DNA of 64,000 nt from Halosegnis longus (GTDB taxonomy: Archaea; Halobacteriota; Halobacteria; Halobacteriales; Haloarculaceae), in the NCBI RefSeq assembly GCF_009663395.1, contig NZ_QKNW01000001.1, positions 1 to 64,000 of the forward strand, in the 5' to 3' direction. Both the position numbers and the translations under genes were made by a program. Positions 39,526 through 64,000 of this stretch are shown piece after piece. The notes under the pieces are model-generated. The model was not told the origin of the DNA. It did no database searches and saw only the letters and a list, made by a program, of their open reading frames with translations. Position 1 is the first letter of the stretch; every line of letters begins with the position of its first letter.

Positions 39526-40887
39526 ATGCCGATTCTGGATGAGCTCTCCGGCTTCGAGTTCGAGGACGTGATGGAGGACGTGTTCCGGAACCTCGGCTAC
39601 ACGAACGTCCGACAGGCAGCGAAAACCGCCGACGAGGGGCGGGATATCCTGATGGACGAACAGGTGAACGGCACGACCCGGGGGGTGGTCGTCGAGTGCA
39701 AACACACCGGGACTGTCGGCCGGCCGGTGGTCCAGAAGCTCCACTCGGCGATTGCGACCTACGACTTCGACGGCCCCAAGCGGGGTATCGTCGTCACGAC
39801 CGGGACGTTTACCGGTCCGGCGACGGAGTACACACAGCGGCTCCGGGACAACGACGACCCGTATCCGATCGAGCTCATTGACGGGAAGCGGCTCCGGTCT
39901 ATCGCCGAGGAGGTCGGACTCGACCTGTACAACGGTCGAATCGAAATCCTGTGTGACGAGACGCTCCGGCCGACCGACCCGACCGGCGGCATCGGTGCGC
40001 CCGTGCGAGAGGCGTTTCGCGACATCGAGAACCTCGACGGGGCGACGCTCCCGGCGCCGACGACACACGCCACCTTCGAGCCGGTCGTCCTGATTACGGC
40101 GACCGTTGATGCCGTCTTCGAGACCTCCGTCGGCGTCATCCACCGCATCAACGAACGGACACAGTTCGTCGTCCGGGCCGGTCGCACGCGACCGCAGATA
40201 CTCGACAGCGCAGTCGCGACGCTCGTCTCGGAGAACCGCAGACAGACCGTCGCGCTGGACGAACTCGACCTCGCGGACGAGTTCGACGACCACGAGGTGC
40301 ACCGCTTCGGTCAGACGGAAACCGAGTACAAGGAGTGGGCCGTCGACCGCCTCCGGCAACACCACACGACGACGGTCTCGTATACCGGTGACAACAACGT
40401 CGATTACGAGAGGGAGTGCGTGCCGAACCAGTCGGATATTTCGGTCCGGTCGATCGAGCCGGTGTATCTCCCCGACGTTCGCCAGACGACGGAGATTCAC
40501 GCCCACTCGTACCCGTACGGATACTACGCCGCCGGCCCCTCTCGCGTCACCCACGAGGATGGCATCCACGAGTGCGTCCAGTGTGGCGACACGGACGCGG
40601 CGACGTTCACGTTCTGTGCGAACTGCGGGAGCATCAACTGCGAGTCGCACATCAAGACGGAGCGGCTGGAACAGGACCCCGTCTGTACTGGCTGTGCCGT
40701 GACCGACCGGTTTGCCTTCCGAACGAAGTACTTCTACAGCGAGGCGAACCGGGACGCGTTTGCAGCCGAGTACGACGCGATGGCCGTCCACGAGAAGGCA
40801 CAGGAGAACGTGCCCGCGGCGATTGGAGCGGTCGTCGGACTCGTCGGCGTGCTCGCGCTACTGCTGGTGCAGGCGGGCGTGGTGTGA
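39526..40887 (+). CDS. Membrane-tethered Mrr-type restriction endonuclease-like protein
   Basis: A 453-residue protein. The N-terminal ~130 residues are an Mrr_cat nuclease fold: FEDVMEDVFRNLGYTNVRQ, then DEGRDILMDE (catalytic Asp40) and GVVVECKHTG (Glu57 and Lys59 of E-x-K). A ~200-residue middle domain has no recognised function. Zinc ribbons follow (CVQCGDTDAATFTFCANCG, then CESH and CTGC). A C-terminal single helix (AIGAVVGLVGVLALLLVQ) should anchor it in the membrane with the nuclease inside. Mrr domains cleave modified or foreign DNA. No methylase gene is nearby. A complete protein with its own promoter gap. Confidence 0.82.
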   Translation: MPILDELSGFEFEDVMEDVFRNLGYTNVRQAAKTADEGRDILMDEQVNGTTRGVVVECKHTGTVGRPVVQKLHSAIATYDFDGPKRGIVVTTGTFTGPATEYTQRLRDNDDPYPIELIDGKRLRSIAEEVGLDLYNGRIEILCDETLRPTDPTGGIGAPVREAFRDIENLDGATLPAPTTHATFEPVVLITATVDAVFETSVGVIHRINERTQFVVRAGRTRPQILDSAVATLVSENRRQTVALDELDLADEFDDHEVHRFGQTETEYKEWAVDRLRQHHTTTVSYTGDNNVDYERECVPNQSDISVRSIEPVYLPDVRQTTEIHAHSYPYGYYAAGPSRVTHEDGIHECVQCGDTDAATFTFCANCGSINCESHIKTERLEQDPVCTGCAVTDRFAFRTKYFYSEANRDAFAAEYDAMAVHEKAQENVPAAIGAVVGLVGVLALLLVQAGVV

Positions 40888-43430: not shown

Positions 43431-43565
43431 TCAGGGACCTGAAACGGTTATACCGCCCATTGCGGCAACGGAACCAGTTATCTGCGACAACACCAGTAGC
43501 GTCGTCAGGAGTACCGCTGTTAGTCGTGGGCTATTCTTGAGGTGGGTGCGAATGGTGTCTTTCAT
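43431..43565 (-). CDS. Small hydrophobic peptide (DUF7503-like), next to CHAT gene
   Basis: A 44-residue peptide: a basic start MKDTIRTHLKNSPRLTAVL, a hydrophobic helix LLTTLLVLSQITGSVAA and a short tail GGITVSGP. From memory this matches a family of tiny haloarchaeal peptides (N-P-R-x..., LLLLSQ, ...GP) that I think is DUF7503. A TATA-like GTATAATACG on the minus strand lies about 28-34 bases before the ATG, which supports real leaderless expression. It is divergent from the CHAT gene, 197 bases apart. It should sit in, or pass across, the membrane. Function unknown. Confidence 0.65.
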   Translation of the reverse strand: MKDTIRTHLKNSPRLTAVLLTTLLVLSQITGSVAAMGGITVSGP

Positions 43566-43762
43566 CAACAGCAGCACGTCAAGTCGCCTGCGTATTATAC
43601 GTCGTGTCTACAATTCAAATAAATATATGTATTTCTCACTGAAATTAAGTCCGGACGCAGTATTACTATCGTCAAGATATAACACGTTCCTAATGGAAAT
43701 ATGCGTATTATGAATCAGATAAATTTCTCATCAACGTCCCGTCCTGTGATTAACGCGATTAT
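43566..43762. promoter_or_regulatory. A/T-rich divergent promoter region of the CHAT locus
   Basis: A strongly A/T-rich gap between the small peptide gene and the CHAT gene. It contains the minus-strand TATA-like GTATAATACG (complement of about 43592-43600) and many plus-strand A/T elements such as ATAAATATATG. Composition is clearly unlike the GC-rich surroundings, suggesting acquisition. Confidence 0.5.
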
Positions 43763-45847
43763 ATGACGGGCGAGGCTGGAATCTCTATTCGGGCAAACTC
43801 ACAAAGACTCCAGATAGCCGACCCCGTCACTGGCGAGCAATACACAATTCAGACGGATCAAATCCTACGTCCGTCGCAAACTGATGGCTCACTCGGTGTA
43901 CCAATCTCAGAGACAGTCCGTATTTACGCAAGTTCGATGGTGATTGATACCCCTGCAATGACTTATATCCGGAATTCAAACGGCGAAATTACTGACGAAC
44001 TTACATACGATGATACTGTCTCATACCAAGCAGGATCGTGGCTAGTCGACCTCCACACTCCTGTTAAGACATACATCCGTGTAGAAGGTCCATTCTCAGT
44101 GACTGTCACCACTGATACTGTCGAAATTGAGACCAAGCACCTTTCAGATGTCACAATCGGTGTCCGAACCTATCGCCGTCATCCTACAACAACAATCACC
44201 ACGACTGAGAATCCATCTGACATTGCATCTACAATCTCGCACCTCTCAGCGGGGTTGGAGACGCGATCACCAGAGCGATCGTTTCCGACCCTCCGGAACC
44301 ATCCTCCGGCGGTTGAGGTTGGCGAACAGCTCTCGATCCCGTCGGCCATCGAGGGTTCAACTTCACCAGTCACTATCTCCCACCCATACACATACTCAAA
44401 CCTCTATGCTGTCGCCCCACTTGCGTACTATCTCGATGCAACACTAACTGAGGGCGACCCCGCAATCCATGTTGACGGTCACGGCACTTGGGAACTTCCC
44501 CCCGACACATTCTCTGACCGATGCGCACAGTTGCTGAAGCAGTGTGTCTTGCTTGATTGTTTGACACGGACAGAAGGCCTCTATCCGACAATCCTTGAAG
44601 AACGGGTGCAGGTAGACTCTACTCTCGATATCGACTGGAAGACCATCTATTCTACCTCATTTGCGAACCGTACGGCGACGTACCTTGATATCGAGTATAC
44701 AGAAATCGAGGACGTAGTACCGACGTGGCATGCGCGCGGATATGTACCACCTCAAGGCCAGTCTGTAGAGTACCTGCCGCATTTTTTGGATCAACTTACA
44801 CCGATTGAAGCAATCGAACCAGAGCAGGTGCGTGGTGACGATGCCCGAAGACTTGCCTTACAACGGTTTCGCGAGAGTAACGATGTCCTGATGCGATCGG
44901 GGTCTGGGCAGTCGACATTTGACCAACAAATTCCTTTCGTCGATATTCCGACGCCGCCAGAGCGTGAGGCCCTGTGGGTTGGTGAGAGTATTCCGTTCGG
45001 TGCAAATCATCTACTCGCTGCCGGCATCCAGCGGTATCACGAGGCTGACCAGCCTGATGATTCTGAGATCACTGTTACCCTCGTGTGTAACGACAGCGAG
45101 ATGACCGAGGAGATTGAAAGCGCCGAAGATATCTACGGCGCTCGCGAGAACGTTCGTCTCCGGGTCGATGCGTATCGAAATTTGACGACCGAACAGCTTG
45201 CAAAGCGGCTCACAGAGCCTTCTGATTTATTCCACTTCGTTGGCCACGCGTCGACTTCGGGTCTGCACTGTCCAGACGGTGTGCTCTCGCCTGCAACAGT
45301 GGATTCTGTTGGAACGCGCGCATTCTTTCTTAATGCGTGTTCGTCGTATCTGCCAGGGCGGGAACTCATTGAAGCCGGTGCAATCGGGGGTGTCGTTACA
45401 TTGAGCGACGTAAACGAGCAGTCTGCACAACAGGTCGGTGTGATGACGGCGAATCTCCTCAGTATCGGATTCTCCCTACGAAATGCGCTGTGGATCGCTC
45501 GCGAGCAGAGTGTCGTCGGTAGCCAGTATATTTGCGTGGGGATGGATAGTCTCTGGCTAACACATCCGGACGGAGGCGGACTATACGCTGTTGACCTCAC
45601 AGAGAGTTCGGTTGGCTGGCGCATTCGAGGGGCAAGCTATCCATCACTTCACGTTGGTATCGGTTCGATGATTGGCTACCCACTCGACGCAGAGGATCGA
45701 ATGTCCCTCGTCGGTGGCAGTTTCCTTCGTCAAGAAATATCCGATGACGTTCTCAAATCCTTTCTTGAAGCCGATGAGAGCCCTGTACGGTACGACGGTG
45801 AGTGGACGTGGAGCGACCAGTTGCTCGAGACGTTGTGGGAGACCTGA
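43763..45847 (+). CDS. CHAT-domain (caspase-like) protease, left copy
   Basis: A 694-residue cytoplasmic protein. Residues 1-380 are beta-rich with no family I recognise (RIYASSMVIDTPAMTYIR and similar strands). Residues ~390-694 are a CHAT cysteine-protease domain: LFHFVGHAS with catalytic His495, and AFFLNACSS with catalytic Cys526, followed by GAIGGVVTLSDVNEQSA and an allele-like tail ending YDGEWTWSDQLLETLW. CHAT proteases act in stress and immune signalling (for example separase-like or Craspase types). Codons and base composition are A/T-richer than the neighbours. A close relative lies in reverse orientation at the right window edge. The FtsZ-like gene follows 42 bases later. Confidence 0.85.
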   Translation: MTGEAGISIRANSQRLQIADPVTGEQYTIQTDQILRPSQTDGSLGVPISETVRIYASSMVIDTPAMTYIRNSNGEITDELTYDDTVSYQAGSWLVDLHTPVKTYIRVEGPFSVTVTTDTVEIETKHLSDVTIGVRTYRRHPTTTITTTENPSDIASTISHLSAGLETRSPERSFPTLRNHPPAVEVGEQLSIPSAIEGSTSPVTISHPYTYSNLYAVAPLAYYLDATLTEGDPAIHVDGHGTWELPPDTFSDRCAQLLKQCVLLDCLTRTEGLYPTILEERVQVDSTLDIDWKTIYSTSFANRTATYLDIEYTEIEDVVPTWHARGYVPPQGQSVEYLPHFLDQLTPIEAIEPEQVRGDDARRLALQRFRESNDVLMRSGSGQSTFDQQIPFVDIPTPPEREALWVGESIPFGANHLLAAGIQRYHEADQPDDSEITVTLVCNDSEMTEEIESAEDIYGARENVRLRVDAYRNLTTEQLAKRLTEPSDLFHFVGHASTSGLHCPDGVLSPATVDSVGTRAFFLNACSSYLPGRELIEAGAIGGVVTLSDVNEQSAQQVGVMTANLLSIGFSLRNALWIAREQSVVGSQYICVGMDSLWLTHPDGGGLYAVDLTESSVGWRIRGASYPSLHVGIGSMIGYPLDAEDRMSLVGGSFLRQEISDDVLKSFLEADESPVRYDGEWTWSDQLLETLWET

Positions 45848-45889
45848 GCATGGACGAAAGTTGAAGTCGGCGTACTCACAGCGACTCGT

Positions 45890-46855
45890 ATGAAAGACAT
45901 CGTCGCGACGGCCCTCGACAGTGCACGACAGCACCCCGATGCGTCTTCCTCTGCCGACGCCGGCGAGTTCGGTTTGCCTCGCTTCTGTTACATCGGCTGT
46001 GGCTCGTGGGGGTGTCAACGCGTTGCGGGCGGACTAGCCGACCGGAGCTACGACAGCCCCCCGCAGCTACCGCTCCAAGAACTTACCAGAAATATCTGCG
46101 TTGGAGACCGAGAAGCGATGCCTCCAGTCCGCGCCGACGAGTGGGTTGGTCACGACGCTGTCCGTAACGGGGAGTGCGATGGCTGTCACGACCAGCTTGC
46201 TGTAGACGCCACCGACGCCGACATCTGTCTGCTCGCGCTATCGCTCACGGACGCAACTGCAGTGGCGACAGCCGTTACCCTCGCGAGGAACGCGGAGGAG
46301 ACGCCGGTCCTCGTCTTTGCGGCAACCGACGGGGAGCACGAGGACGGGACACTACAGCGTCTCGCGGCCGCCGCAAACGCGACGCTCCTGTTTGACGAGA
46401 CTGTCGTTCGTGGTGGTCCCCTCGGCACCGCGGCGACACCCGCTAGCGAACTTGTTGCGCGGCTCGTTCGCGAGTTCGTGACGGACGCCGTCGAGCTGCC
46501 GACCATCTCTAGCGCGATCGGGACCCGGTATCCGCGCGTCGCCTCGCGCTGGGACACCGGCGGGCTGGCGATTCCCTCACTCGCACGACTGAGCTCCGAG
46601 ACCACGACCGCGTCGACGCTCCGCGAGTCGCTGCTACCGCTCGCCCGCACGTCCGTGGAGACGGAGGCCTGGGTCGGGTACGTCGTCGGTGGAGAACAGT
46701 TCACGCTAGACGAATTCAATCGGCTTCGAACTGCCCTCCGGGCGACTGTTGGGGAGCGTGCGGCCGAAGAGGGGGTGCTTGCCGGACGCATCCATCCCGA
46801 CTTGGACGACGCGCGCTACCTCACGCTTCTACGGATGGTCGGCGACCGCAGCTAG
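45890..46855 (+). CDS. Tubulin/FtsZ-like protein lacking the GTP-binding loop
   Basis: A 321-residue protein 42 bases after the CHAT gene and co-directional. The start of a Rossmann-like domain reads FCYIGCGSWGCQRVAGGL, as in FtsZ/CetZ strand 1 and the following glycine loop. DADICLLALSLTDATAVATAV sits where the GGGTGTG signature should be, but no such glycines are present. NATLLFDETVVRGGPLG and ASELVARLVREFVTDAVELPT then resemble the CetZ helices after strand S6. A four-cysteine patch (GECDGCHD) could bind metal. I infer a tubulin-fold protein that does not bind GTP in the usual way; confidence is low. Ending RYLTLLRMVGDRS. Confidence 0.45.
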   Translation: MKDIVATALDSARQHPDASSSADAGEFGLPRFCYIGCGSWGCQRVAGGLADRSYDSPPQLPLQELTRNICVGDREAMPPVRADEWVGHDAVRNGECDGCHDQLAVDATDADICLLALSLTDATAVATAVTLARNAEETPVLVFAATDGEHEDGTLQRLAAAANATLLFDETVVRGGPLGTAATPASELVARLVREFVTDAVELPTISSAIGTRYPRVASRWDTGGLAIPSLARLSSETTTASTLRESLLPLARTSVETEAWVGYVVGGEQFTLDEFNRLRTALRATVGERAAEEGVLAGRIHPDLDDARYLTLLRMVGDRS

Positions 46856-63030: not shown

Positions 63031-64000
63031 TTAGGCTTGTTCGTCGGTTTCCCACAGCCTCTCGATGAGCTCATCGCCCCACGTCCATTCTCCGTCGTAC
63101 CAAACTGGAGATGGTTCAACAGAGAGGTAATCGCGGAGGATTGCGTCCGACACGTCATCTCGAATAATTGATTTACCGACAATTGAGGTCGTACCGTCTT
63201 GTGTGAACTTGTGCGTGATTAACGAACCAACGCCGAAATGTAGTGAGGGATACGTTTCTGCTTCCACCCGCCATCCCGTCTCGTTTTTATTTAATTGTAT
63301 GCTGCTGTCCATACTCGATTCCTTCGGGGTGAGCCAGAGGCTATCCATGCCAACACACATATACTGTCCACCGGTGACGCTCTGCGTGCGGGCAATCAAC
63401 AGTGCATTTCGGAGCGAGAATCCAATACTCAGCAAGTTTGCTGTCATCACTCCAACCTGTGTAGCTGCTTCTTCGGTCACGTCACTGAGCGTCACGACGC
63501 CACCAATTGCTCCCTGCTCAACGAGTTCACGACCGGGAATGTACGACGAGCACGCGTTCAGTACGAACGCTCGGGTCCCAACCGAATCCAATGTTTGAGG
63601 CGAGAGAATACCGTCCGGGCAGTGTAATCCCTCTATTGAGGCGTGACCAACAAAATGGAACAGGTCTGAGGATTTCTTGAGCCGTTCAGCAAGCTGGTCC
63701 GTTGTCAGGTTCTGATACACATCGACGCTCAACTGGAGGTTCTCACGCGATCCGTAGATGGCCTCAGCCTGTTCGACTTCACTTTGCATCTCACCCTCGT
63801 TACAGACCAGGGTCACGCTGATTTCTGATCCGCTTGGCTGCTCTGCCGCGTGATAACGCCGAACTCCTGTTTCCAGCAGATGGTTCGCTCCGAAAGGAAT
63901 CTCTGCCCCTGTCCACAGTGCTTCTCGTTCTGGTGGTTCCGGTATCTCAGTAAATGGGAGTTCTTGACTGAATGTTGACTGGCCCACTGCTGCGCGATCA
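63031..64000 (-). CDS. CHAT-domain protease, right copy (5' end outside window)
   Basis: The frame is open to base 64000 and continues past it, so the N-terminal part is missing. The visible 320 residues cover the CHAT domain and its tail: LFHFVGHAS (catalytic His), AFVLNACSS (catalytic Cys), then GAIGGVVTLSDVTEEAA and CVGMDSLWL. Nearly every motif matches the left copy at 43763-45847, roughly two thirds identity by eye, but the region near KESSMDSSIQLNKNETG differs. The orientation is opposite to the left copy, so the two face each other. Confidence 0.85.
   Translation of the reverse strand, partial: DRAAVGQSTFSQELPFTEIPEPPEREALWTGAEIPFGANHLLETGVRRYHAAEQPSGSEISVTLVCNEGEMQSEVEQAEAIYGSRENLQLSVDVYQNLTTDQLAERLKKSSDLFHFVGHASIEGLHCPDGILSPQTLDSVGTRAFVLNACSSYIPGRELVEQGAIGGVVTLSDVTEEAATQVGVMTANLLSIGFSLRNALLIARTQSVTGGQYMCVGMDSLWLTPKESSMDSSIQLNKNETGWRVEAETYPSLHFGVGSLITHKFTQDGTTSIVGKSIIRDDVSDAILRDYLSVEPSPVWYDGEWTWGDELIERLWETDEQA

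Follow-up and report, generated by a model that had tools for sequence, protein, structure and literature searches.

In Craspase, a type III-E CRISPR system, the CHAT protease Csx29 has a dedicated protein substrate, Csx30 (PMC10028731, PMC9729208), and in FxSxx-COOH systems the precursor of a C-terminal peptide is encoded beside a zincin-like metallopeptidase, often together with radical SAM and NTPase partners (PMC7159879). High Asp-specific caspase-like activity has been reported in the haloarchaeon Haloferax volcanii, with no gene assigned to it (PMC3615174). Here we analyze the first 64,000 nucleotides (nt) of Halosegnis longus contig NZ_QKNW01000001.1 (the window), in which a CHAT protease gene stands beside a gene for a hydrophobic peptide of 44 amino acids (aa), and compare this pair across haloarchaeal genomes. 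An initial annotation, made from the window sequence, had grouped the two genes with a tubulin-like gene as a possible immune or stress module. The comparison points instead to a two-gene haloarchaeal module in which the peptide is, on balance, probably a dedicated substrate or ligand precursor of the protease.

CHAT and DUF7503 genes form an order-wide pair

The window peptide matches the Pfam family DUF7503 (PF24335) at 4.9e-11, scoring 42.5 bits against a curated cut-off of 27. Close pairs of related peptides have a median ratio of nonsynonymous to synonymous substitution (dN/dS) of 0.18, which marks the open reading frame (ORF) as a genuine coding gene. CHAT genes were found in 275 of the 293 good-quality genomes of the order Halobacteriales (94%); 256 of these 275 also carry DUF7503, versus none of the 18 genomes that lack CHAT (Fisher p 8e-19, a value that ignores kinship). 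No DUF7503 gene was found outside the order in the sampled genomes of the phylum.

Within the family Haloarculaceae there are 148 DUF7503 matches, distributed over 107 of 146 genomes, and 138 of these genes lie 3′-convergent to a CHAT gene within 1 kilobase (kb). The other ten comprise the 5′-divergent gene in the window, one gene 5′-divergent to a CHAT remnant in Halosegnis rubeus, two at contig ends, and six that are non-adjacent; the count sets DUF7503 matches against CHAT matches, with unpaired genes checked in their fetched neighborhoods. Of the 80 CHAT loci in named genomes, which span many genera, 68 carry a DUF7503 gene, every one convergent, and all 40 further loci from the order have a convergent partner (DUF7503 in 36 cases and a soluble peptide ending in Gly-Pro in four). 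The median gap in convergent CHAT-DUF7503 pairs is 48 nt. In addition, the distances between CHATs track those between their peptides (Mantel r 0.56, against at most 0.13 in 2000 permutations), as expected if the pair travels together. On these comparative grounds, CHAT and DUF7503 are a real, order-wide two-gene pair whose members are functionally linked.

Convergence is the rule, and among these genes the divergent layout that the initial annotation had described is confined to the window and H. rubeus. In a CHAT tree (built with FastTree and containing some long branches, so its details are tentative), the window protein falls in a clade of seven. The other six members have no adjacent peptide, so the window stands out twice, by its layout and by the presence of a peptide next to CHAT. 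Judged from gene order and the tree, rearrangement has given the window a divergent form of the pair, within a branch of Halosegnis in which no other CHAT has a peptide beside it.

Tandem duplicates of DUF7503 occur at L067:8848-9163, about 1.9 kb from CHAT, and at G182:C1:486534-486796. A second copy of the pair in genome G012 (L064:1-1966) has its CHAT frame in pieces and an intact peptide with an identical DUF7503 score. The recurrent neighbors of CHAT are DUF7503 and DUF7504 (PF24336), families with consecutive Pfam accessions. At 54 of 240 CHAT loci, a redundant set, the gene immediately preceding CHAT in the same orientation encodes a DUF7504 protein, which in some cases also has a HalOD1 domain (for example L141:3201-3905, L152:2780-3889, and L104:3061-3837). 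All genomes searched contain several DUF7504 genes and the window contains none, so we treat DUF7504 as an optional partner.

Haloarchaeal CHAT proteins are predicted clan CD peptidases

The His495/Cys526 dyad of the window protein, with its GH and NAC sequence context, is invariant in all 175 aligned CHAT proteins, a count that leaves out one frameshifted fragment that could not be scored. Structure prediction gave a confident model (predicted local distance difference test 89, predicted template modeling score 0.91), whose Foldseek matches include SAVED-CHAT (2.9e-7), separase (4.0e-7), and gingipain (7.7e-7), as well as the TPR-CHAT protein of the Craspase gRAMP-TPR-CHAT complex (8d9g). No close sequence relatives were found among solved structures. 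The Pfam CHAT profile PF12770 does not match the window protein and matches only 5 of 34 relatives (best 3.6e-4); this profile is too weak to detect haloarchaeal CHAT in control genomes. Neither a TPR domain nor any Pfam match was recognized in the protein, and its N-terminal half (about residues 1–380) could be assigned to no known family. With its dyad intact and by its modeled fold, the window protein is a CHAT protein of clan CD, with the caspase-haemoglobinase fold, and a predicted peptidase.

A C-terminal unit is shared by single-copy and array partners

The 143 unique DUF7503 peptides are mostly 43–47 aa long, and most contain a single hydrophobic helix. A Gly-Pro C-terminus is present in 128 of them, compared with 264 of 21809 background ORFs (1.2%), and an AxA-like motif immediately precedes the last nine residues in 139. 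Minority tails, TID or SGI, are found at L208, L218, L231, L010, and L027, in CHAT subclades of their own.

In Halococcus and Haloplanus, the slot of the DUF7503 gene is occupied by a soluble partner that has no hydrophobic segment and ends in SGP. The CHATs of these two genera lie apart in the tree, each nested among DUF7503-paired CHATs. The twelve Haloplanus species carry one CHAT each, accompanied in three by a canonical peptide (for example MSESDSGTVATYLKNNPRMMGVLFTMLLLLSQAGTVAAGNSGAISGP) and in nine by a leaderless array, one of which (L256) is partly masked. In the arrays the N-terminus is followed directly by 2–14 tandem 13-residue units, for example MSESDSGTVAASREESGTVADGNGGGISGP and then three copies of YNADGNGGGISGP. 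One canonical and one array species are sisters in the CHAT tree (L259/L260), which indicates that conversion occurred more than once or was reversed. Units are uniform within a species and different between species; in Haloplanus ruber, 12 positions of 13 units show 18 extra synonymous codon variants and no nonsynonymous ones, and by this measure the units are kept by purifying selection. Asp occupies position −10 in 64 of 66 array units but in none of 141 canonical peptides, which mostly have Ala there. From these tail statistics and arrays, it appears that the peptide works through its last nine or so residues, the tail that ends in Gly-Pro.

Possible roles of the peptide: substrate or ligand precursor, signal, or docking tail

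The amplification of the tail, the loss of the leader, and the switch from Ala to Asp fit a substrate of CHAT, or the precursor of its ligand, better than they fit a membrane toxin; we hold this reading to be somewhat more probable than otherwise. CHAT would then be a cytosolic caspase-fold cysteine peptidase and the small gene would encode its dedicated partner, the business end of which is a C-terminal unit of about nine residues, G-N-x-x-x-I-S/A-G-P, with a free Gly-Pro end. CHAT would recognize, bind, and cleave this unit. In most species a hydrophobic leader resembling a signal peptide precedes the unit; signal peptidase may cut at the AxA motif of this leader, or the leader may anchor the tail. 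In Haloplanus arrays the leader is gone and each repeat follows x-T/N-A-Asp, as expected of caspase-like polyprotein cleavage after Asp, so the array could be cut by CHAT between x-T/N-A-D and G-N, and perhaps also after Pro. The module may serve in stress or cell-cell signaling. Binding and cleavage by CHAT, export, and the physiological role of the peptide are all points that we infer from sequence.

Several observations weigh against this reading. By the positive-inside rule, applied by eye, canonical peptides are predicted to be N-in/C-out, placing the tail outside the cell, away from a cytosolic CHAT; this conflict of topology is the main weakness and leaves room for signaling and docking. 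Canonical tails lack the junction Asp, and therefore one cleavage rule cannot cover both forms. The general acidity of haloarchaeal soluble proteins could be a plainer reason for the Asp, requiring no caspase specificity, and the repeat units are related, which makes unit counts non-independent. Moreover, about 10% of peptides do not end in Gly-Pro, and some CHATs, including most of those in the window's own clade, have no adjacent peptide.

Alternatively, the hydrophobic segment may be a Sec leader that signal peptidase cuts at the AxA motif, the resulting 9-mer being exported and sensed, possibly after re-import, by cytosolic CHAT as a receptor-protease. The near-constant AxA-like motif ahead of the tail fits this scheme, as do a weak match, short of the cut-off, to TIGR04207, the signal-peptide model for haloarchaeal surface glycoproteins, the status of the tail as the fastest-changing part of the peptide between relatives (proportion of nonsynonymous differences, pN, 0.22 vs. 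0.08–0.11), and the multi-copy precursors, which are typical of peptide signals. However, signal peptides do not require conservation nearly as strong as that of the leader (P 100%, F 99%, Q 94%, G 93–95%), and these residues may instead make a specific membrane or protein contact, while the Haloplanus arrays and Halococcus partners have no signal sequence. We regard an exported signal as rather unlikely.

Docking is a similarly doubtful explanation. Here the tail would be a ligand that recruits CHAT, with membrane anchoring or tandem multivalency leading to activation by induced proximity and the peptide remaining uncut. Activation by proximity is known for caspase relatives, the two ways of raising the local concentration of tails substitute for each other at one locus, and the repeat unit is strictly conserved. 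Against this, the canonical tail is predicted to be outside the cell, and the Asp at the repeat junctions is left unexplained.

The initial annotation had offered the peptide as either a membrane-active effector or the CHAT substrate, within a mobile defence gene set. Its link to CHAT is upheld and the substrate is now the best reading, whereas an immune module in which CHAT frees or controls a membrane-active effector is very unlikely. Bacterial CHAT proteases do act in immunity (PMC10028731, PMC9729208), and the single hydrophobic helix of most peptides would suit a toxin; however, partners are soluble in two lineages, with intermediates in Haloplanus, and the peptide gene outlives the adjacent CHAT in H. 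rubeus, although a paralogous CHAT remains there. Nor does the picture of mobile defence genes agree with the near-universal distribution of CHAT, the lack of any PADLOC match for the CHAT, peptide, or FtsZ-like gene, the failure to find CHAT relatives in viral contigs, or the composition of CHAT in other genomes, which is hardly A/T-richer than its flanks.

That the small gene acts solely at the level of DNA or antisense RNA, through overlap of the convergent 3′ ends, or is a hitch-hiker, is highly improbable: the near-invariant orientation and short gaps do suggest that the transcripts probably overlap, but the low dN/dS, the conserved protein residues, and the synonymous-only variation within arrays speak against it.

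The Halosegnis longus locus and its neighbors

The initial annotation placed the three genes correctly and was accurate on the intact His/Cys dyad, the TATA-like box, the start of the FtsZ-like ORF 42 bases past the CHAT stop, and the A/T-richness of the stretch, whose guanine-cytosine content is 49–55% against about 63–67% in its surroundings (Table 1). The promoter region of DUF7503 genes is strongly A/T-rich at about −40 to −31, and a TTCAAA-like motif stands ahead of the TATA region (about −45 to −30) of this conserved promoter at, for example, L183, L014, and L005. A second CHAT gene, at the right edge of the window, is a possible partner of the window peptide in trans.

Table 1 Annotated features of the CHAT-DUF7503 locus in the window
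Feature	Position	Strand	Basis
DUF7503 peptide gene, 44 aa, MKDTIRTHLKNSPRLTAVLLTTLLVLSQITGSVAAMGGITVSGP	43431..43565	-	ORF translation and Pfam match
Nine-residue C-terminal tail MGGITVSGP after an AxA-like motif (SVAA); putative functional unit	43434..43460	-	Tail statistics over 143 peptides and Haloplanus arrays
TATA-like box TATAATA, −34 to −28 of the peptide ATG	43593..43599	-	Relatives are AT-rich at this position
CHAT (clan CD, caspase-like) protease gene, 694 aa	43763..45847	+	Sequence relatives and fold match
Catalytic His495 codon (CAC)	45245..45247	+	Invariant in relatives
Catalytic Cys526 codon (TGT)	45338..45340	+	Invariant in relatives
Divergent FtsZ2 paralogue without GTPase signature; a neighbor, no conserved module member	45890..46855	+	Alignment to FtsZ2
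Second CHAT gene, 3′ part, without adjacent peptide	63031..64000	-	57% identical; whole gene extends to about G000:C1:65118

The tubulin-like gene proved to be FtsZ-related, yet only as a distant relative: its product aligns to haloarchaeal FtsZ2 over its length at an identity of only about 23%, has lost the GGGTGTG GTP-binding signature, and has no Pfam match. By this alignment it is a divergent FtsZ2 paralogue. Among the 109 genomes of the family searched, close relatives were found only in the window genome and in H. rubeus (G084). The H. rubeus locus is syntenic with the window, sharing a TbsP-type regulator, the peptide, and the FtsZ-like gene. Its CHAT has been deleted except for about the last 64 codons, with the peptide and FtsZ-like genes kept (L063:10843-11331); a paralogous CHAT about 38 kb away, the counterpart of the one at the window's right edge, is kept too. 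We therefore rejected the proposed trio as a unit, since the pair recurs and the FtsZ-like gene, which outlasts CHAT deletion, does not, and on the same two-genome distribution a tubulin scaffold or sensor as a conserved part of the module. In genus g8 (G059, G060, and G062), CHAT is directly preceded by an FtsZ2 gene in the same orientation (for example G060:C2:165832-166713, with CHAT at 167274), probably by chance.

The only defence-like gene recognized near the locus encodes a protein with an Mrr_cat restriction endonuclease domain (window 39526-40887; 3.4e-25).

Comparison with known systems

In a literature search with subscription journals mostly outside its coverage, we found no paper that names DUF7503, none that pairs "CHAT domain" with haloarchaea or Haloferax, and no account of the order-wide CHAT-micropeptide pairing or the amplified arrays. 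The pair offers a function-level lead for DUF7503, a family of unknown function, and for a nearly universal haloarchaeal CHAT protease, and the Haloplanus arrays, as an experiment done by nature, pick out the conserved unit and hint at a cleavage site.

Haloferax species carry one CHAT-DUF7503 pair each, and DUF7503 was found in H. volcanii itself. As a hypothesis, CHAT is a candidate source of the orphan caspase activity in haloarchaea, and the question of which gene lies behind archaeal caspase activity becomes directly testable in this species. Caspase activity has also been reported in archaea outside the order, where the pair was not found, so the pair cannot be the whole answer. The fullest version of the substrate reading, in which CHAT cutting after Asp frees or senses a Gly-Pro-ended peptide of about nine residues from single- and multi-copy precursors as an intra- or intercellular signal, and is the source of this activity, is speculative and in our view improbable as a whole.

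The haloarchaeal CHAT shares its fold and His-Cys dyad with separase, gingipain, and SAVED-CHAT of clan CD, but differs from them in having no close sequence relatives among solved structures. Like FxSxx-COOH systems, the pair sets next to a peptidase gene the gene for a small precursor that diverges rapidly and has a conserved peptide at its C-terminus. Here, however, the peptidase is a CHAT cysteine enzyme, the precursor is convergent, and the tail ends in xGP and can be amplified; neither an FxSxx motif nor a zincin metallopeptidase neighbor was found. The resemblance to Craspase lies in the genetic coupling of a caspase-fold CHAT peptidase to a dedicated protein partner and in the structural match to 8d9g. 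Unlike Craspase, the haloarchaeal system has no recognized CRISPR, gRAMP (Cas7-11), or TPR part, pairs its peptidase with a micropeptide of 44 aa or an array of repeats, and occurs almost throughout a single archaeal order.

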